DNA of 64,000 nucleotides, from positions 28,963-92,962 of IMG/VR virus record IMGVR_UViG_3300035188_001035; one strand, written 5' to 3'. Both the position numbers and the translations under genes were made by a program. This stretch comes from a virus. This document shows, one piece after another, positions 22,018 through 64,000 of this stretch (position 1 is the first letter of the stretch; every line of letters begins with the position of its first letter). The notes under the pieces are model-generated. The model saw only the letters and a program-made list of their open reading frames with translations. It was not told where the DNA came from and searched no databases.

Positions 22018-24468
22018 CTAACTAATATTTAGTTTATTTTGATATTCAGTAAATATTAAATTTACTAATTCATTAGAATTATTATTTAGAATAATCCTAG
22101 TCTCATTCTGATATAATAAATTATCCGCTAGATAAGTATCATCTCCTTTAATTATATATACACCCGGTATTAAATTAGTAAAAGTAGTATCTTCATTAAA
22201 TGAATTATAATAATTTTTTGGACCAATAATAGCACATTGTGTATTTTGTGGACTAATTTTAACAGATAGGGTCAGTCCTTCTGATTCTATAGTATTAATT
22301 TCACCAAGGCTGGTAGACTCATAAGAGGATCCACCAAACAATGATTTGACCCAAGTTGATATAATAAAAGAGTTTTCTAATGTGTCTGTAAGGACACTAG
22401 GAATAAAAGTATTGTTTTGGTTACCTATGTAAACTAAGATATCACCATATTTTATCAAGTCTAAAATTGATCTATTATAAATGGTCAAGACCTGTTGCAT
22501 ATTTAAAAAATGATTATCATAATCTATAGTATTATTATTAAAGCTTAAATATTTTGGAATATTATTAAATCTATCTTTAATTCTAACAATCATATATCTT
22601 TCATCTAAATTTGAAACATATTGAGTATCTTTAATAAGATTATTTTCAAATAAAATATTTTTCAATTCAGAATCTGTTGAATTAAAAGTATAATATTCTA
22701 TAGAATAAATATTATTTAATGATTCTTCTGGTGTGAAGAATGTGCTTTGGCCCTGAATATCTAAACTAATTTCACCAGTATGTTTAGGATCTGTTATACT
22801 ATATATATAAATATTATTATAGTTATTTGAGTTATTAATAACTTTGATTAATTGTTTAATGTGCTGTAAATAGTTAAAAGAATTTGGATATATATCACAT
22901 ATAATATTATTAATATCTATATTATAAGTTAGTAAATTAAATTTTTGTAAAAAATTAATTGTAGTATCATAAGATAATGGTGAATATAGATTTTTTAATA
23001 TGCTGGTAGATATTTCTTCTATGATAATATCATTATCTGTTGAAGAACCGATAGCAATACCAGCACAACCACCGTTAAAAAATTCTCGATATCCGGTACC
23101 GTTTATAATCAGGCTTCCCTTAATCAAACTAGGATTGTCACTATCAATTTCATTAGATTTTAATCCTAGTGTCATGTCAAAAGATTCTTTTGTTTTTAAA
23201 TTCAACAAAGATACCACAGAAGATGGATCCTGTACTCCTGGTGAAATATGAAAATAATAAAACCATTCATTAGAATTGTTTCCTAATTTTAATAATTCAA
23301 TAGTACCATCAGTAATAGAATATTTATCTAACATATTTCTAACAACAAGAAACTCATTTTGCACACCATTAATATTAAAATATATACTACTATTAATTGA
23401 CAAATTTTGTATGGTTTGCCAAAGAGTAGAGTTTTGTACAATATATTTATATGGTATCAGTACTGTATCAAATATATCTCTTGTTAAAACTAAATTCTTA
23501 GTAACGATTGGATTGTCTGGTTGAAGTCTAATATTAATATTCATTGGACTAATATTAGGTATAATAAAAGACGATTCTAATGAACACCGATTATCAAGTG
23601 GTGACGGATTCACATACATTGTATAATTACCGGGTGGAAAAGCATTATAGAATTTATAATGATATGTCTTTTTATCATAATTATTAATTTGTGTATTAGT
23701 AATATCTTGGTATTGAATATAATCTGTAGATGGTCCTAATGGTCCAGACTGATTAGTGTAGAAATTAAAAGAATCAACACTTGTAATTTCTGTCACAAAA
23801 GGATTATTAAATTTAGAATATACATATGTTTGTTCTGTAGTATTATTAATAAATTTTAAATCAAACGGACCGTATCCAGTAAGCTTGAATTCTAGTGAGC
23901 CATAGGAATCATATAGAGCTGGTGGATATATATTATCGTATTGAATACTGATAGTATCATTTTTAACAGTAAACTCTGTGCCGGTAACAGAACAATTATT
24001 GCTATCTATAATCGTGGGTAGGTATGTTCCGGGAATTAAGTTATCTATAGTAAAAACATCATTATTATTGATAGTTGTTGTAGAATCTCCGAGAATAACT
24101 CTATATGGACTAATTCCTCCAATAATTTGAGCTTTATAATATCCATTATTAAAACAACTATACTCTGATTGTTGTATTTCATTCAAAATTAATTCATCTG
24201 GTGATTCTATAGATATTGTTGTTATTGAACTATATGTATTATCAATTAAACTTTTGAGTTTGTATGAATAAGTTCCATTCGATAAATTAAACACTTTTCT
24301 GGTATCATTAGAGATTTGATTAGCTGAAATATTATTTGACCACTCCACAACATACGAAGCAAATGATACTATTTCTGCTTGGTTTGTAAATTGAATAGAT
24401 GTTATTCTTATCGATCCGCTACTATTACTATAGCATTTATTATCTGTTTTAATATATTTTGTGATCAT
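22018..24468 (-). CDS. SprB-repeat-like adhesin / tail fibre
   Basis: The 816-residue protein has several beta modules with the SprB or PKD-like signature: GGISPYRVILG then LIPGTYLPTIIDSNNCS, FPPGNYTMYVNP...C, and LIPGVYIIKGDDTY near the C-terminus. SprB-type repeats occur in cell-surface adhesins of gliding bacteria and as fibres in phages. Asn-, Ser- and Ile-rich composition and short strands fit an extracellular fibre. It starts 10 bases after the upstream gene's stop. Likely role: host recognition by the tail. Which repeats bind what cannot be judged. Confidence 0.6.
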   Translation of the reverse strand: MITKYIKTDNKCYSNSSGSIRITSIQFTNQAEIVSFASYVVEWSNNISANQISNDTRKVFNLSNGTYSYKLKSLIDNTYSSITTISIESPDELILNEIQQSEYSCFNNGYYKAQIIGGISPYRVILGDSTTTINNNDVFTIDNLIPGTYLPTIIDSNNCSVTGTEFTVKNDTISIQYDNIYPPALYDSYGSLEFKLTGYGPFDLKFINNTTEQTYVYSKFNNPFVTEITSVDSFNFYTNQSGPLGPSTDYIQYQDITNTQINNYDKKTYHYKFYNAFPPGNYTMYVNPSPLDNRCSLESSFIIPNISPMNINIRLQPDNPIVTKNLVLTRDIFDTVLIPYKYIVQNSTLWQTIQNLSINSSIYFNINGVQNEFLVVRNMLDKYSITDGTIELLKLGNNSNEWFYYFHISPGVQDPSSVVSLLNLKTKESFDMTLGLKSNEIDSDNPSLIKGSLIINGTGYREFFNGGCAGIAIGSSTDNDIIIEEISTSILKNLYSPLSYDTTINFLQKFNLLTYNIDINNIICDIYPNSFNYLQHIKQLIKVINNSNNYNNIYIYSITDPKHTGEISLDIQGQSTFFTPEESLNNIYSIEYYTFNSTDSELKNILFENNLIKDTQYVSNLDERYMIVRIKDRFNNIPKYLSFNNNTIDYDNHFLNMQQVLTIYNRSILDLIKYGDILVYIGNQNNTFIPSVLTDTLENSFIISTWVKSLFGGSSYESTSLGEINTIESEGLTLSVKISPQNTQCAIIGPKNYYNSFNEDTTFTNLIPGVYIIKGDDTYLADNLLYQNETRIILNNNSNELVNLIFTEYQNKLNIS

Positions 24469-24477
24469 AATTAGCTT

Positions 24478-25941
24478 TTATCCGCATTTAATAAATTCTG
24501 TAGTTTTGCTATAAGTATATTTTCCTTCAGTTCTTTTATTTTTTAATTGCCACCAACTATTATATGGGGCTATTGCTGTTAACCAATAATTATCAACGCA
24601 CTCTATTAGTGTTGGCATTTTGGTAGTATCACAATTTTTTAAACTACCTCTTATAGTTACAGTAGCTCTATGAGGAGTATCCGCAACAACCTGTACTATA
24701 GCTTTATTACTATAAGGAATAGGTATTTCAATAGCCCTATAAACAGGTAATGATTCATCCACACTTAATTCGATAGAACCATCTCCCACAGGATCACAAC
24801 TATTAATATCATCAAATTGAGCACTAAAAGTTATTTCTCCGTTTACTGGCGATTTATTTAAAGAGCTGGATATTCTTTGATAGCAATACTGGAAACCCGA
24901 AGATGGACACGGATTTAAGGTTAATACACAATTACCAGCGATACCATTCAGGGCGACAAAATCACTTGATGGCCAAGTTCCATTAATTAATAATGGTTGT
25001 AATTGATTTAATGCTTGTAATGCATTGGCGTACCTTTCTTCTGTACAACTTTTATTATCTAATATATCTGTAGTAGCACTAGATAATCCTTTAATAGTTC
25101 CGCTAATGTTTCTGAAACGTTGATTTTTAACTTGATCTTTTTTATCTTCTGTATTAATATCAACAAATGCATATGGTGCGCATGATCCTTGGCTAACATA
25201 CATATCGAATGACCATGATACTAAACCATTACCAGTATTAATATCTAAAGATTTTGTATCTAACCATTTTGACCATCCGCTATATTTTCCTATAGGGTGT
25301 GACGAATCACACGCATTTAAAGCCATTAATGCTTTGGCTCTTTCTTTTATAATATCAATAGAATTTTGAATACCATTATATGATGGTATGCCACACACAT
25401 CTCTACCATAAGAAGCAACATTAAGTCTTCCAGATATTTTAATATAGCTTTTAGATACCCCCATAATTTGATCAACAGAACCAAGGTTATTAACCTCTCC
25501 AATAATTTGAATGTTTTCATCATATTCTAATAAAAACAAAGCTTTAGTTATACATGTTTGTCTTAGAAAATCAGGGTCCGGATTAACTGCTGGTGATCCA
25601 TCTACAGTTTCTATAGCTATTTGTATAGTATAATTTGCAGTATATGGTTGATCACCCATAGTAATGTCAACACTGCGTATTCTGCCATTACCATTCAAAA
25701 AATCGCTACCACCAGAACATCCTATCATTAAATTAATACAACTATAATTAGTTTGATAAGTATTTAATTCAGCAATTTTTTGTTTAATATTTTTATCTAC
25801 AAGTGTTCCACTCAAAGTAACAATTAGAAAACCACCAATAGTATGTTCTCCAGCTTTTGTATATTCATACGATGTATTTACGAATGGTGCTGGTCGTAAA
25901 CTAGTGCCATTTAAAAATACAGAATCAAATTTAGAACTCAT
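24478..25941 (-). CDS. Tail structural protein, paralogue of next gene
   Basis: The 487-residue product and the 492-residue product encoded just upstream share layout: an N-terminal beta sandwich, a segment NxRFRNISGTIKGL (RSITGNINGL in the paralogue), a later pair KSPVNGEITFSAQFD (KSRVDGSISFTFDWS) and conserved Cys positions. They arose by duplication. The pattern of extended strands and position between the fibres and hub suggests a tail or baseplate protein. I do not recognise a named family. Confidence 0.65.
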   Translation of the reverse strand: MSSKFDSVFLNGTSLRPAPFVNTSYEYTKAGEHTIGGFLIVTLSGTLVDKNIKQKIAELNTYQTNYSCINLMIGCSGGSDFLNGNGRIRSVDITMGDQPYTANYTIQIAIETVDGSPAVNPDPDFLRQTCITKALFLLEYDENIQIIGEVNNLGSVDQIMGVSKSYIKISGRLNVASYGRDVCGIPSYNGIQNSIDIIKERAKALMALNACDSSHPIGKYSGWSKWLDTKSLDINTGNGLVSWSFDMYVSQGSCAPYAFVDINTEDKKDQVKNQRFRNISGTIKGLSSATTDILDNKSCTEERYANALQALNQLQPLLINGTWPSSDFVALNGIAGNCVLTLNPCPSSGFQYCYQRISSSLNKSPVNGEITFSAQFDDINSCDPVGDGSIELSVDESLPVYRAIEIPIPYSNKAIVQVVADTPHRATVTIRGSLKNCDTTKMPTLIECVDNYWLTAIAPYNSWWQLKNKRTEGKYTYSKTTEFIKCG

Positions 25942-25953
25942 ATTATCTCCAAT

Positions 25954-27432
25954 TTATACTGTACATTGTTGTAAATAATCTTTTTTAAGAGTTAAGCTAT
26001 TTAGTGTTCTATTGATATTGTTATTAACAATAATAAATCCTGTACCATCTCCACCACCTTGAAGATTAACAGTATCTGTTGCCTTGCCTATGTATTGTTC
26101 TATTAGCTTTTGTAGTTTATTTTTTAAATCATTGATAATACAAGAGTCAAATGCAGCACAAGAATTTCCATTGGACGATAAAGATGCTGTAAACTCATAT
26201 TTAAGAGGTCTGAATGTTTTTAAGTCTTGTAATAGTGTTCCATACATCGGAATAATATGTTCAACAACTATTGGCTCTCGATAATTAATATCAACTGTTA
26301 AATCAGTTCTAAATCCATTTTCTTCGCACGAATCGACAGTAGACCAATCGAAAGTAAAAGAAATAGAGCCATCAACTCTAGATTTAGATATTGTTGATGC
26401 AGAAGGTTTGATACAAAGAGCATTATCCAGTGTGGTGGTTTCGCAGGCTGTGATAGGGTTATTAGGACAATTTGGCTGTTTGATCAAAGATAATTCTGAA
26501 CCTTCCCATGAACTTAAATTAGAGAATCTATTTTTAATAACAGCTAATACAGAATCAGCATTAGCTAGTTTGGAATCCGTACAAGTATCAGACAAGTCTA
26601 TTAGATCTGACCATGATACGGATATCAGACCATTAATATTCCCTGTTATTGATCTTTTTTCGGTTTTATCTTGATAGTTTTTATTGTTTGCAAAAGTTAA
26701 ATCTACTAGAGCATACTTTTGTGTGGAGCATTGAGGAATCAGGATAATGGAAGCAGAAAAGGACACGGATCCATCTATATTAGTATCCATGCTTCTAGTT
26801 TGTAATAATTTAGTCCATGTTTTATATTCGCTAAATATTTCATGTTGTGGTCCAAATTTTACTAGTTTACGCAAAACAGTCATGGCTTTTTTAAACGTAT
26901 CGCCATCATCATTACATACTGGCTGACATTTAATATTTATTTTATTAGTAAATCTTACAAAAGTTTTAGAAAATTCTCCATTATTGTATAAATAACCATG
27001 GGAATCCTCACCTAATTCTATCTCTTCTGATTGATCTAAACTAGTTACACAATCAGATGCTACTATTCCTAAAGTATTTGGTGGTATAGTATCAATTTTA
27101 CTTTTAAGTTCTATACTATAAGCACCAAGATTAATCCATGCAGGATCAGCTCCCTGCTCTATATTAACATTAATTATTCTTGCCAAACCAGAATAAAATG
27201 AATCAAGGGTAACAGTAATGCACTGTGAGTCCCGACCAATATTTCTTATATTTTGTAGTTTACTCATAACCTGACTGCCGGTGATAGAGCCGTCATCAGA
27301 AACACTAACAGTACCAGTAACAGTATAAGATACTGAACCTCCTATAATTTCCCCTGATCGTGTTCTATAGTATTCTGGTCTACTTGTTACTTTAGCATCT
27401 TCTAATAATATTCCTGCTATAGTTACTGCCAT
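25954..27432 (-). CDS. Tail structural protein, tandem paralogue
   Basis: This 492-residue protein starts MAVTIAGILLEDAKVTSRPEYY and includes SVSYTVTGTVSVSDDGS, RSITGNINGLISV and RVDGSISFTFDW, aligned with the neighbouring 487-residue protein. The two genes are separated by 12 bases. Divergence is large, so the duplication is old and the two may occupy different positions in a heteromeric ring or fibre. A TATAAGGACAAGG stretch precedes the start and provides the ribosome site. Confidence 0.65.
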   Translation of the reverse strand: MAVTIAGILLEDAKVTSRPEYYRTRSGEIIGGSVSYTVTGTVSVSDDGSITGSQVMSKLQNIRNIGRDSQCITVTLDSFYSGLARIINVNIEQGADPAWINLGAYSIELKSKIDTIPPNTLGIVASDCVTSLDQSEEIELGEDSHGYLYNNGEFSKTFVRFTNKINIKCQPVCNDDGDTFKKAMTVLRKLVKFGPQHEIFSEYKTWTKLLQTRSMDTNIDGSVSFSASIILIPQCSTQKYALVDLTFANNKNYQDKTEKRSITGNINGLISVSWSDLIDLSDTCTDSKLANADSVLAVIKNRFSNLSSWEGSELSLIKQPNCPNNPITACETTTLDNALCIKPSASTISKSRVDGSISFTFDWSTVDSCEENGFRTDLTVDINYREPIVVEHIIPMYGTLLQDLKTFRPLKYEFTASLSSNGNSCAAFDSCIINDLKNKLQKLIEQYIGKATDTVNLQGGGDGTGFIIVNNNINRTLNSLTLKKDYLQQCTV

Positions 27433-27455
27433 AGTCCTTGTCCTTATAATAAATT

Positions 27456-30400
27456 TTAATTATTGCTTGAACTAATTGTTATCCAATTATCATTACCAGC
27501 GTGAACTAATGATATGTTTGTTGATGGTGCTAAACTTGTTAATTCTGTGCCATATCCGCTTTTTCTTATAAATATATAAAAACCAGTATCTCTATTTACT
27601 ATAGTAAATTTTTTACCCATATATAGTCCGGTACCATTAGGTAAATATAATATAGCTGGATTAACAGTTGGAGTTAAAAATTGATATTCTGCATCGTTTG
27701 CGGATAAGTATGTAGATGCTCCAGATAAAGAACCAGAAGTTGCTAGGTTTTCATATCTTAATCTACTATTATTTATGGTGTCGGTACTATCTGTCTGGTA
27801 AATCATTTTATGAATTGAACTAGTGCCAGTTGGCATAGTAGTTGGAGTTATATTTGTACCTGTTGGTGTTGATAATGAATTAATAATAACTCCACTATTT
27901 AATATAACACCACTATTAAACGAAGATATTCCATAGATATTTACGGCTCCACTTACACTAATACCAGATGCAATTTGTGCATTACTAACAGTGATATTGG
28001 TAAATATACCAGAAACAAATGTGCTTGTACCAGAACTCACTATGCCCGATGAAAATATTCCAGTGCCGCCTGCAATATTTATACCTGAATAAAAGGTTGC
28101 AGATCCCGAACTAATAATACCAGAAGCAAATGTTCCTGTTCCTATTACAATAATATTATCATCAAAAGTAAATTCATCATCAGAATAAAAATATATTCCA
28201 GTAGACTTTACTAATAATCCATTAGTGTTATTAGCAAAAATATGTATTCCGCTATTGCCTACTACGGTGCGATTATGTCCAATTACAATATTATCTGTTC
28301 CGCTAGCACTGGAGTTCATACCATGAATAATATTATTTAATCCTGTTGCATATGATTCTATACCACAAACTATATTATTTAAACCAGAGACTGATGATGA
28401 TTGTCCAAAAATAATTCCGCCAGAACCATATATACTATTATTATAGCCAACGATAACACCTGTCTCTTCGATATCTGCATAGTTACCATTACCGACAGCA
28501 AATACACTAGCAAAAAATGAAGAATTATCAAGAGTATTACTTCTGCCAACAGCAACAGATCCATTTGCAACAACAGTATTATTCTCTCCTATAGCTACAG
28601 AATAATCTCCATGAGCACCATTATCATAGCCCATACTAACACTATATAGGCCACTACTAGTATTATTATTACCAAGTGCTATTGCATAATTTTCATATGC
28701 ATTATTATTGTTTCCCAATAGAACTATACCAGTAGCTATAACTCCTGATGTAAGTGCGTTCATATTAGAACCAACCACCAGAGCACCACTACCAGAGCAA
28801 GAGATGTCTCGACCTAATAAAATATTATTTGTTCCACTACTATTGATATCTGTACCATATACTATATTACCACTATTAGTAATAGCATTATTTAATCCAT
28901 AAACGATATTTGTTCCACTAACACTATTATATCCTACAGAACAGGTATTTTTACCTAAATCAATAACTCCTGATTTATTGCCATCTACCAATACAAAAAC
29001 TTGATATTTACTATTTTCTAATCCTGAAGTTAATGCTGTTACATTATTACGTAATAATAAACCAGTAGTTGGCATATTAGAACTATTCATAAAAACGAAA
29101 CCAATAGTTTCGTTGATTCCACTAGACAGAATACTAGTATTTATAAGATTAAAATTGATATCACTATTAACACTAGTGTTATAGCTAATGTCTCCGGATT
29201 GACTTATTTTAATATACTTTGTATTATCATAACAAAGATATGTAGAATTGGATCCGCTAGCAGATATTCCTGATCCTCCAATAATCCAAATATTTGTGCC
29301 AGATACTGAATGATCATTGCCTATAATACCACAATAAGTTGAACCAGAAGACAACACATTATCATTACCTAATAGTATGCTGTTTTGTGCGGATGACGAG
29401 TTATTGGATCCTACTTGTATATTTTGTCCTATATTATCAGAGAATGTTCCTATAACTATACCATCAGTATTATCATTATCTGATCCTACTGTTAAACCGT
29501 CTGTTGAAATAATAAGATTGTCTTTTACTATACCATTATCATAAATTGAAGCTTTAATAGCAGACTTTTCTGATCCTGCTGTTGCAGAATCGATGTACGC
29601 TGATAATTGAACGTATGGTACTCCATTATTACTAGTATTAAGTCCGGAAAAAACTAGAGCGCCAATTCGATCATTACTAATATTTCCACTAGTACTACTA
29701 TTATGAATTGATAGTTCAGGACCAGTACCACTACTTTCTATAGTTAGTCCATTAGTTTCTGAAGTTTTAATATGAACAGTATCAAGAGGATTAGAATTAT
29801 TAATACCAATATTATTGGTGCTAGCATCAATAAATAATAAATGGGTTAATCCACTACCCTCTATTCTAAAATCTTTATCCAGTGACTGTTCATTGAATAC
29901 TACTGTGCCGCCAGAAATCGGTATAATAACATCCGCTGTTACAAGATTACCCGTTCCACCTATTTGTAATGAAGAATTTGAACTATTCCAATTTAATGCT
30001 GCTACTCCGCTAAAAGCTTGATTATTAACAATCTGAATAGTACCATCTATACCATAAGCGGATGTAGAGTCTTGAATAGGATCTAAAAATAACCAGCCAC
30101 TTTGTGATGGTACAGAAACTAATTGTATATAGTCATTAAGAATTGATAATGAATCTGATGAATTGCCATTAACAGTTTCTGTGCCGTATGGTAAAAACTC
30201 CACAGCATTTGCTTGTTCGTATTGACCACCTATAGTTTGATTTAAAAGAAATCCTAAAATGATAGGATCTTCTCCGACTACTGTGGGTAACGAAACCTGT
30301 ACGTTAGATGATGATGCATCAATAATATACGTGGTAGGTATATAGTCAGCAGTAAAATTAGCTGATTTTGATTCTACATTATTAAATGATGTATTGACTC

Positions 30401-52787: not shown

Positions 52788-53792
52788 TTAGAGTGAGCCT
52801 AATAGAACTCTGCGGTTGTCTAGAACAGCAAAGCCTTGTTCTGCCCAGCCATAGAAACCGGCTCTCTTTTGACGATGGAGAGTATCGTCTTCGAAGATTT
52901 GAACGGCTTCACGAACTGGCATTATAAAGCTATCTCTCTTGCTAAGATCTAAACCAACAACTAGTTCTACGTCGCCTTCTGGTAATGTGCCAGATAGTAC
53001 GTTGTCATAGAATAGTTGATATTCTTGACTCTCGCCTAGCTCATCAAGGTCGTGTAGGTTAACACCGAATACTCTATTAAGAGTACCATCGGCAGCAACA
53101 TAGATCTCACGACGTGTAACTTCATCAACTTGGTCAACACCCCAGTTACGAATATCTTCCATAGCTTCTGGAGATACGTAAACGTCTGTGAGTCGGCCAC
53201 GGTTAGCTGAAGTGGAGTTACCACCACCATTACGACGCATAACGGTCTTCATTAAACTTACAAGACGCTTGGTAAATTGACCAGCATCGGCATCGCTGTC
53301 ATAAACAACAATGTTACGATCAACACCAGCAGCAAGAAGTGTATGCCAGCCATCGTCATTCATCTTTTTGACGAATTGAGCTTCCATAACTTCCATAGCA
53401 CGACCAACAACGTCCCAGCGAGCATCACGAGCATACTTTAAGAGGTAGTCGATGCTAGCACCAATGTCATAGGTTGGAACCATGACATAGTCGCCTTCAA
53501 CATGACGCTCTGGAATATAGCCGTGATTGGGAATTGTGTAAGCAACAAAGTCCTTCTCGGTACCAGGAGCAAGGAAATCTAATGGAAATTCTGGAGTAGC
53601 ACTTTGAGCAAGTTGGATTGGCTCGAAAATACCATTGAGAATATCACCATTTAGAATACCTTGTCGAAGTGGAAGTTCTAGAGCTTTTGCAAACTCTGCA
53701 TTAGCACCTAGGGCCTCTTCTTTATTTAATGAGCCAGAACGAACAAGAAGGTCTGTAAGTTCTGGTGTTGGTTCAAAAGCTTTATTGGACAT
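52788..53792 (-). CDS. Major capsid protein (HK97-like)
   Basis: The 334-residue product, PTPELTDLLVRSGSLNKEEALG to the C-terminal AEQGFAVLDNRRVLLGSL, has the length and layout of a HK97-fold coat protein: N-terminal arm with IQLAQSATPEFPLDFLAPG, spine helix RDARWDVVGRAMEVMEAQFVKK, and a late domain with PVREAVQIFEDDTL. The gene's codons are GC-richer than neighbours and a GGGAGA ribosome site precedes the ATG, both fitting very high expression. It follows the decoration gene by 18 bases and is capped by a terminator. Confidence 0.85.
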   Translation of the reverse strand: MSNKAFEPTPELTDLLVRSGSLNKEEALGANAEFAKALELPLRQGILNGDILNGIFEPIQLAQSATPEFPLDFLAPGTEKDFVAYTIPNHGYIPERHVEGDYVMVPTYDIGASIDYLLKYARDARWDVVGRAMEVMEAQFVKKMNDDGWHTLLAAGVDRNIVVYDSDADAGQFTKRLVSLMKTVMRRNGGGNSTSANRGRLTDVYVSPEAMEDIRNWGVDQVDEVTRREIYVAADGTLNRVFGVNLHDLDELGESQEYQLFYDNVLSGTLPEGDVELVVGLDLSKRDSFIMPVREAVQIFEDDTLHRQKRAGFYGWAEQGFAVLDNRRVLLGSL

Positions 53793-58020: not shown

Positions 58021-60033
58021 TTATTTATATATTCCCATGTATATATCTTCGTTAGCTCCTTCTGTAAACCAACTAGGACCTCTATACATTTGGCCACTAT
58101 TTTCTGTTTTTGGTGATGTTTGTGCGTTTGTTCCTATAATATCATAGTTGATAGGAGTAAGTGTTCTAGTGAGTTGTCGTGCTAACATATTGGCGATTAA
58201 TAATGCACTATATCGGTCTTTTCTTAATTTGCCCTTTTTACCATTTGGTAATTTTAAATCAGGAGTATCCCATCTGTCTCTAGCTCCTGATCCTGTGCTT
58301 GTGGAAGTCATAACTATTGTTGTCAATTCGTTTTTTAGTTCTTCAATCTCTAATATACATTCGCTGGTACTATCGTAAATAGGAGTAAGATCAGCTGTTA
58401 AAATATCTTTATTTTCTTGATCTAAAGCTAGTGCTAAGCTTAGATTATCAAAACGAGGAAATAATAATACTTTATCTTCAAAATCTTTGCGTAGTCCATG
58501 GTTTGCTTGTGCTGTCCAATCTGCTCGTGCAAATTGAACTAATTCTAAAATATGCAATCCTGGCTGATCATCCGTGTCTTTAGATTTATCATTATCTATA
58601 ACCGGCCAGATTAAATTCTCTCCATCTTCTAATTTATCTGGATCGTGTAATGCTTCTTCGATTGCTACGCCACCACCCTGAGCGTCCATTCCTATTCGCT
58701 CACAAGGAAAAACTTTCATTAAATTACGAATTTTCCTAGCACAAAATCCATAAAAATCATGTTCGTTTGATAGTCCTGCTTTTTGTCGTTCTTTAAAGTT
58801 TGTTCGATTCGTAGTCCAACAATATACTATTCTGGTGTGTGTTCCGTGACACTCTAATACTACAATACTAAAATTATCTTTTTCACTAGCAGGGTCAATT
58901 CCATATACATATTTATTCTTAGGGTCACCGTTTGTTCTTACTTCGAATAGAATTTTTTCATCATTTATAATTAATGGATTATCTGGTTTTACAACACAGC
59001 TTTCTATAAGGCTTCGTCTAAAGAATCCATCGCTATCTTCCGTAAAACATGCTGCATATTCCATATTATAAATACCAGTATGAATAGTAGCTTTAGCTCG
59101 TGCTACTTGTTTATCGTCCATGAATCCTTTTGGTATTAATTCATAAGGTATACGAATAATACTATAGTCTCTCCAATTAAAATTATCTGGTACTTCACCT
59201 TTAAAAATTTCTTCAAGTTTATGAATTTCGCCCTTGCTCTCTATAATAGTTTTGTATCTCTTCCAATAACTAGCAAAGTGCTTGAAAGCATAATCAGCCG
59301 TGCCTGCTATTATGGCCTGGTTACCCATTTTGAAACTTAATTCCTCTAAATCACTATTCCATAATCCAGCATCTTTCATGGCTTGTTTTTTAGCTTCTCT
59401 TTTTACGTTTTGAATAGGAGTAGCAGAAACTGCCGCGAAACCTGAAACTACGGTCTCATAAATATCTGGAGAAATTGATGCGAATTCGTCTGCGATGATA
59501 ATGTGTGCTCTTAAACCTCTAATTTTACTACCGTCGCCCATAGGAATAGCAATTGTCCAACTATCTCCGAATCTCATTGTGCATCTATCAACATCTCGAC
59601 GCGGTCCATCATCGTTACCATTAAAGATACTGCGTAAAATGGCACTATTACGCCAAAATGTTTCCATATATTCGAATACTAATTTACTCTGACGAAAAGC
59701 TGCGCCAACCACAACAATTTTGGTTCCTGGAACAAAGATGCATTTAAGAGTACAATACAATGCCATTAAAAAGCTTTTGCCGAAACCACGAGACGCAATG
59801 AACATTGGAAAAGGACGAATCCAGAATTCTTGTAAGATAGCAATTTGTATAGGATGAAGTTCAATATCAAATAATAATTTACATGTTGATCCAAAATTAA
59901 CAGGATTTCTTAGTAATTTTAGAAGATGAATATCTGGCCTTTCGATATCTTGCTCTATCCTATTAATCATAGGATTATTAGATATATTTAGTTGTGATAG
60001 TTCGCCAAGATTTAACCACGCATCTTCATACAT
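58021..60033 (-). CDS. Terminase large subunit
   Basis: The 670-residue packaging motor has an N-terminal ATPase with Walker A FIASRGFGKS (residues 78-87) and Walker B HIIIADEFASI (177-187), then the nuclease domain with YVYGIDPASEKDNFSIVV (D380), RIGMDAQGGG (D450) and a later acidic set. Its start overlaps the ERCC4-nuclease stop by 8 bases. DNA translocation and cutting at the portal are the family's roles. The assignment is secure by motif and by adjacent portal gene. Confidence 0.95.
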   Translation of the reverse strand: MYEDAWLNLGELSQLNISNNPMINRIEQDIERPDIHLLKLLRNPVNFGSTCKLLFDIELHPIQIAILQEFWIRPFPMFIASRGFGKSFLMALYCTLKCIFVPGTKIVVVGAAFRQSKLVFEYMETFWRNSAILRSIFNGNDDGPRRDVDRCTMRFGDSWTIAIPMGDGSKIRGLRAHIIIADEFASISPDIYETVVSGFAAVSATPIQNVKREAKKQAMKDAGLWNSDLEELSFKMGNQAIIAGTADYAFKHFASYWKRYKTIIESKGEIHKLEEIFKGEVPDNFNWRDYSIIRIPYELIPKGFMDDKQVARAKATIHTGIYNMEYAACFTEDSDGFFRRSLIESCVVKPDNPLIINDEKILFEVRTNGDPKNKYVYGIDPASEKDNFSIVVLECHGTHTRIVYCWTTNRTNFKERQKAGLSNEHDFYGFCARKIRNLMKVFPCERIGMDAQGGGVAIEEALHDPDKLEDGENLIWPVIDNDKSKDTDDQPGLHILELVQFARADWTAQANHGLRKDFEDKVLLFPRFDNLSLALALDQENKDILTADLTPIYDSTSECILEIEELKNELTTIVMTSTSTGSGARDRWDTPDLKLPNGKKGKLRKDRYSALLIANMLARQLTRTLTPINYDIIGTNAQTSPKTENSGQMYRGPSWFTEGANEDIYMGIYK
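58022..58029 (-). promoter_or_regulatory. Candidate T4-type late promoter box before portal
   Basis: TATAAATA reads on the minus strand near the end of the terminase gene, 46 bases before the portal ATG. That is the consensus late-promoter box used by gp55-type sigma factors, and such a factor is encoded at 61565-62188. In AT-rich DNA this 8-mer can arise by chance. Confidence 0.25.
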
Positions 60034-60505: not shown

Positions 60506-60767
60506 AATGTTTATTCGATAATAGTTTACTAAAAAATTCTATATAGCTATCTTCATTATTTTTTACCATATCATGATGAGCTTTGCATAATGTTATACCA
60601 TTATTAATATCGTATCTTAAATGAGCATTAGATGCCCACTTGTTAATATGATGAACATGTAGTTTTTTACTATTAGAACAATTAGGCCACTGACAAATAC
60701 CGTGGTCTCGTTGTCTTACTTTTTGTCTCCATGCTTTGTAAAGGGGATCGCTATAATCACGCTTCAT
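60495..60767 (-). CDS. HNH endonuclease
   Basis: The 90-residue protein is a small HNH nuclease: C25-x4-C30 and C61-x2-H64 as zinc-type ligands, HVHHIN (H39, H40), N56 in DINNGITLC, and H65. It overlaps both neighbours by 11 bases. HNH proteins next to terminases are common in phages with cos or headful packaging and can be needed for terminase cutting. Confidence 0.85.
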   Translation of the reverse strand: MKRDYSDPLYKAWRQKVRQRDHGICQWPNCSNSKKLHVHHINKWASNAHLRYDINNGITLCKAHHDMVKNNEDSYIEFFSKLLSNKHYDK

Positions 60768-61581
60768 CTGAATTCTTTAATACTGCTTCTGGTGTTAATA
60801 AAGGAATGTCTAATTTACCATCCTGATAAGAATGATATTGCTGTAAAACATCTTTTGTCTTGTTAGTGGCCATATTGAGAATAACCATTTCGCGCCCTTC
60901 TTTTTCTCTTATCTCTTCGTCTTCTAGCATACGTATAAGGCCCGTCCAGCTACTTTTGCCATCTTCGATACGTTTGATTCGTTGTTCTCTTGTGGCTTTT
61001 AAGTCTTTGCTTATTTTTTGTTGTTCAGTAAGAAGTTTAGTATATTCGTTGGTATAGTTGGCCACACTATTACGGGCGAAAGTTAGTTGAGTTTCTAAAT
61101 TGATAAGTTTTTGGGTATCTCGTTGATCTTCTGGTTTGGCGTATATGTCATTAATAACTTGTTGTAATTTTTCAGTTTCGTTTATGTGGCGTTTTCGCTC
61201 TTTCATAGAACGATTAATAAGAATATCAATGGTTATAAATTGTTTGATCTGAAGTTCTTCGGCGGGTAAAACGTCTTCTCTAAATTGTTTGATAAGGTTA
61301 ATCCAAATTTCTTCAAAGTAATCTAGTTCGCCACTATCTTCGTCAAATTGTTTGGTAATTTCGTTCCAGAAACTTTTACTGTGTAATTTTGTTCGTAAAA
61401 TTTCATCACTATCATCATGTGTTAGTAACAATTTGCTTTCTGTTACATATCTTTTTATTGGTGCAGATGATCGATTTAAATTGGTGGCAATCTGGTCAAT
61501 AGTAAGAGAACCTATATTATCTCTTATGAATTTTTCTTCTTCCAGACTAAGCTGGCCTCTTTTTTTAGGAATTGATGTCAT
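60757..61581 (-). CDS. Small terminase-like HTH/coiled-coil protein
   Basis: The 274-residue protein has an N-terminal helix-turn-helix (LEEEKFIRDNIGSLTIDQIATNLNRSSAPIKRYV, residues 14-47) and a long coiled coil (residues 120-215), with a charged end. This is the architecture of small terminases: DNA-binding head and oligomerising core. It lies 5' to HNH and ERCC4 nuclease genes and the large terminase. The HTH resembles that of the plus-strand 72-residue protein at 62393. Confidence 0.6.
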   Translation of the reverse strand: MTSIPKKRGQLSLEEEKFIRDNIGSLTIDQIATNLNRSSAPIKRYVTESKLLLTHDDSDEILRTKLHSKSFWNEITKQFDEDSGELDYFEEIWINLIKQFREDVLPAEELQIKQFITIDILINRSMKERKRHINETEKLQQVINDIYAKPEDQRDTQKLINLETQLTFARNSVANYTNEYTKLLTEQQKISKDLKATREQRIKRIEDGKSSWTGLIRMLEDEEIREKEGREMVILNMATNKTKDVLQQYHSYQDGKLDIPLLTPEAVLKNSDEA

Positions 61582-62188
61582 AATCTTTGAGTATTTGTTT
61601 AATTTCTGAGTGTAATTTTTTAATCTCTAATTTGGAAACTTTACTGCCGCCTTTTAGTTTGAGAAATATGGGGCGATTTTTAACACTAATATTAAGATCT
61701 ATAATTTTTAATAGTTCTTTATTACTTATGCTATTAAATAATTCGTTACTATTAATTTCTTTGGCATTTTCTCCTATAGTATCAATACCAATGGGCTTCA
61801 TGATATTTTTCTTAGCATCATTTCGTTTGCTCCAATTTTCATATAATGAACAGTCATTTTTATTAGAAAATTCTGAACATCCTGAAGCTAGTGAGGTATT
61901 ATAAAATGGACATGTTAAGCAGGGTTTATCTGGTCGTTGATAGTTGTCTCGTTTGTAATTAAAGAGGCGATTTCTAACATGTGTCCATAAGAAGTTTTCT
62001 AGGGGGCGACTTTTATCATAATTTTTTAATCCTTCAAGCGCAAATATGGCGGCTTGTTGTTTCATATCTTCGTGGCTGTGATATCCAAATTTAAATTTAT
62101 AGCCTAATTTTTGGCTAATTTTTTCCCAAGCTTGTAAAAATTCAGCTTCGCTCACCTTGTTCTGAATTAGTTTGGGTTTTTTCGTCAT
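61565..62188 (-). CDS. Late transcription sigma factor-like protein with Cys cluster
   Basis: The 207-residue protein has a region like sigma-70 domain 2 (HEDMKQQAAIFALEGLKNYDKSRPLENFLWTHVRNRLFNYKRD, residues 39-81). An inserted four-Cys cluster (C90, C93, C104, C113) follows, probably binding zinc, and a C-terminal helical part. This fits the gp55 type of late sigma, which recognises TATAAATA. Ribosome site AAGGAA before ATG 62188. Control of late virion genes by this factor is inference. Confidence 0.7.
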   Translation of the reverse strand: MTKKPKLIQNKVSEAEFLQAWEKISQKLGYKFKFGYHSHEDMKQQAAIFALEGLKNYDKSRPLENFLWTHVRNRLFNYKRDNYQRPDKPCLTCPFYNTSLASGCSEFSNKNDCSLYENWSKRNDAKKNIMKPIGIDTIGENAKEINSNELFNSISNKELLKIIDLNISVKNRPIFLKLKGGSKVSKLEIKKLHSEIKQILKDYDINS

Positions 62189-62392: not shown

Positions 62393-62611
62393 ATGTCAAA
62401 AACATATAAAAAGTGGACAAAAGAAGAACTAGAATTTATCAGTAACAACTCTCAAAATATGAAGGATGAGGAAATTGCGGCCTACTTAAATAAGACGGAT
62501 AGTAGTCGAACAATTAGTGTGGGCATGGTTCGTAGACAAAGACGCAAGTTAAGTATTGTGAAGCCACGAGGTCGTAAGCCATCCAAGGTTAACGAATCTG
62601 CTGAAGCATGA
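62393..62611 (+). CDS. Small HTH / AT-hook DNA-binding protein
   Basis: The 72-residue protein combines a WTKEELEFI...MKDEEIAAYLN helix-turn-helix-like start with a very basic VRRQRRKL helix and the AT-hook-like PRGRKP (residues 58-63). AAGGAG precedes ATG. It lies divergent to the late gene run and is the first gene of the right-hand region, so it is a candidate regulator of the switch or of the repeat operators nearby. It ends with a strong terminator. Confidence 0.75.
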   Translation: MSKTYKKWTKEELEFISNNSQNMKDEEIAAYLNKTDSSRTISVGMVRRQRRKLSIVKPRGRKPSKVNESAEA

Positions 62612-62642: not shown

Positions 62643-62673
62643 AAAGGGGCAGAGTTACTTCTGCTCCTTTTTT
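62643..62673 (+). terminator. Rho-independent terminator after HTH/AT-hook gene
   Basis: AAAGGGGCAGA (62643-62653) pairs with TCTGCTCCTTT (62660-62670) with one G.T pair and a six-base loop, followed by TTTTTT. It begins 32 bases after the stop codon and separates the AT-rich late region from the GC-richer block. Confidence 0.85.
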
Positions 62674-62737: not shown

Positions 62738-62806
62738 CCACCGCCCCGTTTTGGGGGTGTGGCCCCTTGTAAGGGGGGAAACAAAAAAACCCCCCTATGG
62801 TGGGGG
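62738..62806. repeat. Three adjacent G/C-tract inverted repeats
   Basis: Hairpin 1 is CCACCGCCCC/GGGGGTGTGG (62738-62762, imperfect); hairpin 2 is CCCCTT-GT-AAGGGG (62763-62776); hairpin 3 is CCCCC-TATGGT-GGGGG (62791-62806). None is followed by a proper T-run, so these are not standard terminators. Related short stems occur at 63180-63197 and 63795-63809. Confidence 0.6.
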
Positions 62807-62818
62807 ACCCGACCATCG

Positions 62819-62891
62819 TGGCAGGCTTTTGACAAAATGGCAGGACAAAATGGCAGGAACTGCAAATATGGCATAGATACCAAAATGGCAG
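62819..62891. repeat. TGGCAG operator-like repeats, cluster 1
   Basis: ACAAAATGGCAG occurs at 62832-62843 and 62845-62856, a degenerate form at 62862-62874, and CCAAAATGGCAG at 62880-62891, with a bare TGGCAG at 62819-62824. Start-to-start distances are 13, 17 and 18 bases. They look like binding sites for one repressor or replication protein. Confidence 0.65.
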
Positions 62892-63008
62892 AATGTTGAA
62901 AATCGCGGGAAAAACAGCATTTTTGATTTTTTTTGGGTTTGGCATGGGGTGTGCATATTATTCTGGCATCGGAAAAGGATACAAACCAGTAGAAAGAAAG
63001 GTAGAAAA

Positions 63009-63188
63009 ATGAAAATCGGTGATTTTGTTTTTGCCGAATACGATAACGGCGAAATTGTCAACGGAGAGGTGGTCAGCGTCAGAATGTTCGGTGATCGTAC
63101 CCTGCTAACTGTCAAGTGTGAGCAAGGGTATCGGTCGATCTATACCGACAAGTGCGTCACGTTTGATATTCTGGAAACCACCCCCTAA
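63009..63188 (+). CDS. Small beta (SH3/KOW-like) early protein
   Basis: The 59-residue protein, MKIGDFVFAEYDNGEIVNGEVVSV then LLTVKCEQGYRSIYTDKC, has the short strand-turn pattern of SH3 or KOW-type barrels. An AAAGG site precedes ATG 63009; the earlier ATG at 62949 lies in the promoter region. GC-richer codons than the rest of the window. The stop codon falls in the loop of a C5/G5 stem. Function unknown. Confidence 0.65.
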   Translation: MKIGDFVFAEYDNGEIVNGEVVSVRMFGDRTLLTVKCEQGYRSIYTDKCVTFDILETTP

Positions 63189-63240
63189 CTTTGGGGGTTG
63201 AGCGTCAAAAAAACTTTGGTATCCTAGTAGAAAGCAAAGG
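63180..63240 (+). promoter_or_regulatory. Regulatory module B (hairpin + promoter)
   Basis: CCCCC and GGGGG (63181-63197) form a stem around the stop codon of the previous gene. TTGAGC (63198-63203) then TATCCT (63220-63225) with a 16-base spacer is a sigma-70-like promoter, followed by AGTAGAAAGCAAAGG, which matches the leader of module A. No TGGCAG operator is present. Confidence 0.5.
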
Positions 63241-63251
63241 AAAAAAGCAAA

Positions 63252-63575
63252 ATGAAAAAGTATAAGATTATTCGAGACGCGGAGAGGGTTGCCCGGTCGT
63301 GCTTCCTAGGGATTGCTATCCCTTGCGACAAGTCTACCGCGGATGGCGGTATGATCCGTTCGGAAAAGGTTCTCAAGTTCAATCGCAAGGCTTTGCGGAA
63401 TATCGGTAAGGCTAAGGCCGATAAGGTTGACCCCCGCATGTTGGGGGGTGAGGATACGATGATCGTCAAGGTTGGCCAACCCGGAAGTAAGGAAAGGGTT
63501 GAGGCTTTGCGATCACAATATGAAGCCATTGAGGCTTGCGACGAATCGGTTTCGCCGTTCGCGTGGGAAGCGTAA
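63252..63575 (+). CDS. Small basic early protein, unknown
   Basis: The 107-residue protein begins MKKYKIIRDAERVARSCFLGIAIPCDKS and has a basic middle (RKALRNIGKAKADKVDPRM). No family is recognised. It has its own promoter and AAAGG site. The internal CCCCC/GGGGGG tract (around 63430-63450) belongs to the same class of stems as in the intergenic modules. It is probably an early protein of host takeover, from its position only. Confidence 0.6.
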   Translation: MKKYKIIRDAERVARSCFLGIAIPCDKSTADGGMIRSEKVLKFNRKALRNIGKAKADKVDPRMLGGEDTMIVKVGQPGSKERVEALRSQYEAIEACDESVSPFAWEA

Positions 63576-63624
63576 ACGTTGTAGATAGGATGTTCGAAGG
63601 GTACTTTGAAAAAAAGGAATTATC

Positions 63625-63765
63625 ATGACGATCTTGGAAAGTGACTGCTGCTACGCTCCCGTTGTCGCGGGAGACATTTGTACACGTTGCAAAGAACACT
63701 GCGAACCCGTATGGGTGGAAACGGAGGAGGATAATGGTCAACCCGGATTCATTCCGGGAACCTAA
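63625..63765 (+). CDS. Cys-rich mini-protein (zinc-ribbon-like)
   Basis: The 46-residue protein is too short for many gene callers but has a good AAAAAGGA ribosome site. It contains DCCYAPVVAGDICTRCKEHCEP, with Cys at 8, 9, 19, 22 and 26, giving a CxxC-x3-C zinc-type pattern common in short phage proteins. The rest is acidic. Function unknown, possibly a small DNA- or protein-binding factor. Confidence 0.65.
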   Translation: MTILESDCCYAPVVAGDICTRCKEHCEPVWVETEEDNGQPGFIPGT

Positions 63766-63794
63766 TCCCCCAAAGGTAGGATATACACAATCCT

Positions 63795-63809
63795 CCCCCT
63801 AAAGGGGGG
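63795..63809. repeat. G/C-tract hairpin, module C
   Basis: CCCCCT-AA-AGGGGG (centre near 63802) is the counterpart of hairpins at 62738-62806, placed just before the second operator cluster. Confidence 0.5.
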
Positions 63810-63811
63810 TA

Positions 63812-63855
63812 CTGCCAAAATGGCAGATTTTGCCCGAAAACTGCCAAAATGGCAG
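63812..63855. promoter_or_regulatory. Perfect palindromic operators, cluster 2
   Basis: CTGCCAAAATGGCAG occurs twice (63812-63826 and 63841-63855), 29 bases apart. Each has a 6-base inverted arm (CTGCCA/TGGCAG) around AAA. The cluster-1 sites are half-like versions of the same motif, which points to a dimeric DNA-binding protein. Confidence 0.7.
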
Positions 63856-63888
63856 GCTAGCAAATATTATACCAAAGCATGCTAAAAA

Positions 63889-63990
63889 TTATTTTTTTGT
63901 TTGGCATGAAATTATATTTTGATTTTTTCAAAGATTTTTCTTGCATTGGTCGATTTACTCTGTATAATGAGTGCATAAGAAAGAAAGAGA
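63889..63990 (+). promoter_or_regulatory. Module C promoter driving a gene beyond the window
   Basis: A T-tract with TTTGGCATG (63889-63908) leads to TTGCAT (63941-63946), a 16-base spacer and a perfect TATAAT (63963-63968), then a GTGCATAAGAAAGAAAGAG leader like those of modules A and B. The downstream gene starts outside the window. Apart from hairpins and operators the 63766-64000 gap holds no gene. Confidence 0.7.
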
Positions 63991-64000
63991 GAAAGAAAAA

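Follow-up and report, generated by a model that had tools for sequence, protein, structure and literature searches.

The stoperators of cluster A mycobacteriophages are asymmetric sites which lie mostly away from promoters (PMC6550527). They resemble the operators described here in that one operator type occurs per phage, with many sites in one orientation and with types that differ between relatives, whereas the sites of our lineage are dyad pairs located upstream of promoters and confined to early regions. A second point of comparison are the PeSLs, said to have been presented by Arbiol et al. in 2010, which are reportedly mobile cassettes of T4-type phages composed of a hairpin and an early promoter and thought to travel as units. 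Small repeated units of a hairpin and an early promoter between the small early genes of large phages are likewise present here, but PeSLs are said to contain neither paired dyad operators nor sigma-54-type promoters, and the genes compared give our lineage no apparent T4-like character. With bacterial RpoN promoters, whose bEBP enhancers are located 80-150 bp upstream (PMC3844500), the lineage shares the element TGGCAC-N5-TTGC, the GG-N10-GC geometry and dyads 80-150 bp upstream; the difference is that the elements would here serve the early genes of a phage, are often inverted and stand beside sigma-70-type promoters. Moraphages are metagenomic aquatic jumbo phages with predicted Bacteroidota hosts (PMC12619734). 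Compared by description, they are like the present phages in being aquatic jumbo phages known from metagenomes. The TTGACA/TATAAT and Shine-Dalgarno-type signals of the present phages do not suit Bacteroidota.

We analysed a stretch of viral DNA of 64 kb, in the following termed the window, and assign a probability of about 0.7 to the reading that the early region of an undescribed lineage of freshwater jumbo phages begins at its right end, and that many small early genes or gene groups of this region each have a promoter cassette of their own.

The Fragment and Its Relatives

The window comprises positions 28,963-92,962, the right end of a viral fragment of 92,962 bp. The fragment derives from an undescribed, widespread lineage of freshwater jumbo phages, i.e., very large lake viruses of bacteria. 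Many of its genes have counterparts in the near relatives G001 and G010 with 224 and 233 kb, respectively, of which G001 encodes its own tRNAs and a tmRNA (tag GNTQLALAA, L229:12600-12952). To the left of the window, genes for the DNA polymerase III alpha subunit, a DnaB-like helicase, a RecA-like protein and a class II-like ribonucleotide reductase are located. The polymerase is split into two reading frames (L008:9053-13382; G000 24053-28382), and the third frame between them is possibly a homing element. Cultured phages are all distant: the terminase shares 24-26% identity with Bacillus and Microcystis phages and the major capsid protein 21% with Bacillus phage G, while T4-type phages were absent among the best matches of the terminase, capsid and DNA polymerase III alpha genes. 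In cultured phages, nothing matched the region at the DNA level, the modules had no convincing counterpart, and no relative of the 107-aa early gene (Table 1) was found; a search of Rfam yielded no match.

The order of terminase, 62393 gene and early modules is kept in distant relatives. Beside the terminase, two more genes on the minus strand (window 60757-62188) weakly resemble genes for transcription regulators or sigma factors. The fragment ends just inside the early region, which continues in the relatives. The contig end at 64000 lies within the repeated leader of the second module, and a repeated leader would be a usual place for an assembly break. This break in a repeat, together with the shift in base composition at 62.6 kb and the higher GC content of the last 1.3 kb, could point to an assembly artefact at the contig end or to ordinary intergenic repeats. 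We consider this highly improbable, as the independent contigs L009, L011 and L021 cross the join with 99-100% identity and distant relatives keep the synteny; on the strength of the synteny we also rejected a chimera, which the jump in GC content had brought to mind.

Anatomy of the Modules in the Window

The first-pass annotation had described a repeated order of hairpins, a TGGCAG operator cluster, a T tract with TTTGGCATG, a promoter, an AGAAAG-type leader and a small gene. Hairpins, cluster, T tract with TTTGGCATG (62924-62946), AGAAAG leader (62991-63008) and small gene were all found in the first module at 62738-63188 (Table 1). A scan for sigma-70 promoters, which also overlooks the weak -35 of the second module, gave none in the first. 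Its TTTGGCATG is best read as a putative sigma-54 -24 element, and the TGGCAG cluster, with spacings of 13, 18 and 17, may be read as an enhancer (UAS)-like array. The last of the hairpins and an A run would form a strong terminator on the minus strand (window 62787-62810), upstream of which no known gene lies on the same strand.

The second module (63793-64000) has hairpin, dyads, T tract, promoter and leader; its gene lies outside the record because the contig ends at 64000 inside the leader. The view that the copies share their order holds for the elements themselves and does not extend to the spacing of the sites (13/18/17 versus 29) or to the promoter, which is sigma-54-type in the first and sigma-70-type in the second module. 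The operator CTGCCAAAATGGCAG is a dyad with 6-bp arms, arranged in 29-bp pairs, and in this differs from the asymmetric stoperators. T tract and TTTGGCATG recur at 63888-63908, where the forward site has a score of 6.1 and is not a sigma-54 promoter. A conserved variant with the -24 and without the -12 element, TTTGGCATGAAATTATATTTG, occurs at 63900-63920 of the window and in L045, L053, L061, L064 and G007. The 16-bp spacer and the CGATA-like element of the sigma-70-type promoter match the promoters of the relatives.

The region 63180-63252, annotated as a partial module, retains hairpin and promoter (63181-63251) and has no operators; the homologous gene of the relatives is preceded by the same hairpin and promoter. 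Tiny cysteine-rich proteins of one family (DCC..V..DIC.RC.EHC; 63625-63765 and relatives) are repeatedly encoded 3' of cassettes.

The repeated modules are real and not due to chance. Five copies of AAAATGGCAG are present in the window, all within its last 1.2 kb (0.18 expected), and two of CTGCCANNNTGGCAG (0.00 expected). TTTGGCATG by itself is not significant (2 versus 0.63 expected; at least two in 9 of 100 shuffles); the longer, 21-nt ATTTTTTTTGGGTTTGGCATG, however, forms a direct repeat.

Table 1. Features of the window (coordinates of the 64-kb stretch)
Feature	Position	Strand	Remark
Major-capsid-like protein	52788-53792		
Terminase	58021-60033	-	
72-aa DNA-binding protein (62393 protein)	62393-62611	+	HTH and AT-hook-like tail; first gene in early direction
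Intrinsic terminator of 62393 gene	62643-62670	+	12-pair stem and T run; z -5.7
Three C/G-rich hairpins	62738-62808		last one, with A run, putative minus-strand terminator
TGGCAG/AAAATGGCAG cluster	62819-62891	+	59-122 bp upstream of -24 GG
Sigma-54-type -24/-12 promoter TTTGGCATGGGGTGTGCA	62938-62955	+	GG-N10-GC; matrix score 15.2
Purine-rich AGAAAGAAAG leader	62966-63008	+	from sequence; predicted start site
Small early gene, 59 aa	63009-63188	+	no family match; stop codon in loop of next hairpin
Hairpin CCCCC-N7-GGGGG	63181-63197	+	directly before next promoter
Sigma-70-type promoter TTGAGC-N16-TATCCT	63198-63225	+	partial module; no operators
107-aa early gene	63252-63575	+	lineage marker; 107 relatives in viral contigs
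46-aa early gene	63625-63765	+	cysteine-rich, zinc-ribbon-like; from sequence
Hairpin CCCCC-N4-GGGGGG	63793-63809	+	upstream of second module
Operator A, CTGCCAAAATGGCAG-N14-CTGCCAAAATGGCAG	63812-63855	+	29-bp repeat; dyads 63812-63826 and 63841-63855
Reversed GCAAATATTATACCAAA and forward TTTGGCATG	63860-63908		degenerate sigma-54-like inverted pair
Sigma-70-type promoter TTGCAT-N16-TATAAT	63941-63968	+	CGATA-like TCGAT in spacer
AGAAAGAAAGAGAG leader	63978-64000	+	record end

Sigma-70-Type Cassettes of the Relatives

Outside the region only one further AAAATGGCAG was found in the fragment, since the fragment reaches no more than 1.3 kb into the early region, while up to 44 matches were obtained per record of a relative. 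With up to two mismatches tolerated, the 15-bp dyad gave 22-44 matches in the relatives with the same operator, and the reversed control gave 0 in the match-rich records. In the relatives the motifs thus recur and lie upstream of early genes, the two points on which the first-pass annotation had let its reading depend.

Relatives with the same operator possess 14-18 modules per early region, all built on one plan: a C/G hairpin, a GC-rich spacer flanked by two CTGCCAAAATGGCAG dyads at a distance of exactly 29 bp, an A/T tract, a sigma-70 promoter with CCGATA, a purine leader and a small gene. We counted 66 pairs of CTGCCAAAATGGCAG-like dyads at a distance of exactly 29 bp (G001, G002, G004, G014, and G016), and 62 of them are followed by a promoter of the form TTGACA-like, N16/17, TANNNT. 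From the end of the second dyad to the -35 the distance is 22-26 bp in 35 of these 62 cases and 12-13 bp in four. The 14-bp spacer between the dyads is GC-rich (e.g., GCGGGCCGCGATTT), and an A/T-rich stretch, which presumably resembles an UP element, precedes the -35. The promoter itself is a strong one of sigma-70 type, TTGACA-N16/17-TAGAAT or TATAAT; CCGATA lies either within its spacer or directly behind the -10. Counted from the start of TTGACA, CCGATA is found 8-12 or 29-31 bp further on, positions about two helical turns (about 21 bp) apart, and is possibly a second control element.

Hairpins of the type C4-N-G4 occur only in the early regions of G000, G001, G002 and G004 (counts with overlapping matches) and are infrequent in the type B phage G010 (see below); because most of them lack a T run, a role as terminator can be assigned to them only tentatively. 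In eight relatives, the early strand carries 148 promoters of the CGATA type and the opposite strand a single one. The paired-dyad modules precede early promoters or genes, and none is scattered in genes or in the late region. Strand bias and position bear out the earlier suggestion of coordinated early expression. The alternative offered with it, a stoperator system, received no support, for the sites are palindromic, paired, associated with promoters and restricted to the early region instead of being spread over the genome.

Sigma-54-Type Sites

Within 80 early loci, TGGCAY-N6-TGC was present in 97 forward and 129 reverse distinct sites, and the control spacers N3-N5 and N7-N9 gave 0-6 sites. 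A matrix built from 27 sigma-54-bound Salmonella sites (PMC3844500) yielded 141 matches in the early loci (692 kb); shuffled sequence gave 4, and about 480 kb from the same phages beyond their early regions gave 1. Sigma-54-type sites are accordingly strongly enriched in early regions and almost absent elsewhere. The consensus YTGGCACGNNNNTTGCW with GG-N10-GC at -24/-12 is found across the lineage, the site of the window (15.2 bits) lying just under the weakest of the 27 proven sites (16.3 bits). Downstream of about 64 forward sites no sigma-70 promoter was found, and 33 of these 64 are accompanied by UAS-like sites, with few exceptions between -80 and -150. The UAS-like sites are of the GCAAAATGC or CAAAATGGCA type and in the relatives are nearly confined to distances of 80-150 bp upstream of a sigma-54-type site. 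Those of the 64 sites with a recognisable leader, which is AGAAAG-type, are mostly followed by the ATG 30-50 nt after the element.

It is conceivable, although we hold it for unlikely, that the TTTGGCAC-N5-TTGC elements are asymmetric sites of another protein which shares the sigma-54 consensus. Such a protein would account for the observation that more than half of the distinct sites (129 of 226) face away from the downstream gene, some of them in outward-facing pairs with short gaps, and that many of the elements are situated upstream of a sigma-70 promoter. However, the exact GG-N10-GC geometry, the full consensus, the matches to a matrix from proven sites, dyads at enhancer distance, start codons at the right distance and the forward sites lacking a downstream sigma-70 promoter all argue for promoters of sigma-54 type. 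Simple promoters do not account for the sites that face away from the gene; these may represent closed complexes that stay silent, promoters of divergent transcription or sites of another protein. Reversed elements, GCAAATATCGTGCCAAA, are also found between operators and sigma-70 promoter (L009-L088, e.g., L045, L053, and G001 182537-185318), often about 32, 43, 54 or 64 bp from the -35.

The phage records searched contained no sigma-54 activator (PF00158), no HTH_8 domain (PF02954) and no RpoN (PF04552), so that activator and RpoN would both have to come from the host. No earlier report of sigma-54-type promoters in phages was found in the literature searched.

Two Types of Operators

In addition to the CTGCCAAAATGGCAG operators, here termed type A, a second type was detected. 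Type B relatives (G003, G007, G009, G010, G011, and most of the 80 loci) carry the operators CGTAAGTGCTTA and AACGACTTACG and keep the promoter, A/T tract and GC spacer of type A. The types are mutually exclusive per locus, with 18 loci of type A and 56 of type B, and dyad pairs are absent (0) from type B loci. At two orthologous genes the promoter core and the GC spacer align between the types while the operators differ. A tree built from the flanking gene (window 61565-62188) requires three or more changes of operator type on branches with good support, and the best tree contains five. Median protein identity of the early region is 70-73% among type A phages and 55-66% between type A and type B, a contrast stronger than in the rest of the genome, and early regions were therefore apparently exchanged partly within a type. 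Control sites seem to be replaced within the lineage as whole sets, and because the type was exchanged several times, operators and regulator, whether encoded by phage or host, appear to change together. Helical phasing of all distances was not established: it rests on clustered, related distances, and distinct distances alone gave p of about 0.15.

Paired palindromic sites, a single type per phage and the exchange of types are reminiscent of immunity groups (compare PMC6550527), as if the dyads were operators at which a phage repressor, in a temperate or self-limiting circuit, closes the early promoters coordinately; in that case CCGATA within the promoter could be a further operator. Such a circuit appears quite improbable to us, for the main operators are placed about 60-100 bp before the start, outside the promoter core, genes and late region are free of sites, no repressor was recognised in the searched records, and the jumbo size suggests a lytic phage.

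Search for the Regulator

The 62393 protein matches a D5-like transcriptional regulator profile (E 8.8e-6), and its AlphaFold model has three helices with a pLDDT of 85; a fold search of the PDB with this model gave no match with E up to 0.001. The MVRRQRRKL helix and the PRGRP-like tail are conserved in 32 aligned relatives, and the helix does not differ between the two operator types. Nearly the same protein, with an identical recognition helix, is encoded in L013 of type B and in L029 and the window, both of type A. It is therefore unlikely, as far as sequences can tell, to decide which operator is read, and could bind an element which the whole lineage shares. By presence/absence comparison no gene for a class-specific DNA-binding regulator was found; the candidates looked like a protease-like protein and membrane or uncharacterised proteins, among which no DNA-binding protein was recognised. 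The regulator may be a phage protein that is homologous between the types and has changed its specificity, or it may be one of the host.

The latter would mean that the dyads are sites of host regulators, each type copying the site of a different host activator, and that the type marks the host. The search results, with neither a phage bEBP nor a class-specific regulator, fit this, as does the repeated change of type among close relatives, which host jumps would produce. We regard it as a serious possibility, though not the probable one, given that L218, the sole contig assigned to a bacterium in which a relative was found, looks like a phage contig of type B that was probably misbinned, and was rejected as host.

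Proposed Mechanism and Significance

As we picture the early region, host RNA polymerase would transcribe the cassettes after injection, each being composed of an upstream hairpin, paired operators, an A/T-rich UP-like tract, a promoter and a purine leader. Two kinds of promoters would be used, one sigma-70-type with two operators and one sigma-54-type with dyads 80-150 bp upstream. A DNA-binding protein other than a sigma factor would recognise the paired operators and in this way switch all early cassettes at once; its location ahead of the -35 and the fixed spacing suit an activator, or else a phased repressor or looping protein. The hairpins would presumably separate neighbouring units. 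Of this picture, the anatomy, its conservation, the strand bias, the exchange of operators and the sequence and geometry of the sigma-54-type sites were observed, while activation, the use of RpoN and the role of the hairpins are inferred. That part of the early programme runs on RpoN promoters with enhancers, combined with a whole-set operator swap at 15-20 early promoters that is tied to a host bEBP or an exchangeable phage regulator, has in our estimation a little less than an even chance.

The early genes of phages are as a rule served by plain, strong promoters of sigma-70 type. Sigma-54-type promoters arranged in arrays with enhancers would, if true, tie infection to the stress or nutrient state of the host. 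The repeated exchange of whole operator sets would be a natural experiment on how a regulator and dozens of its sites change together, and the cassettes may serve as a marker for finding further members of the lineage and their hosts.
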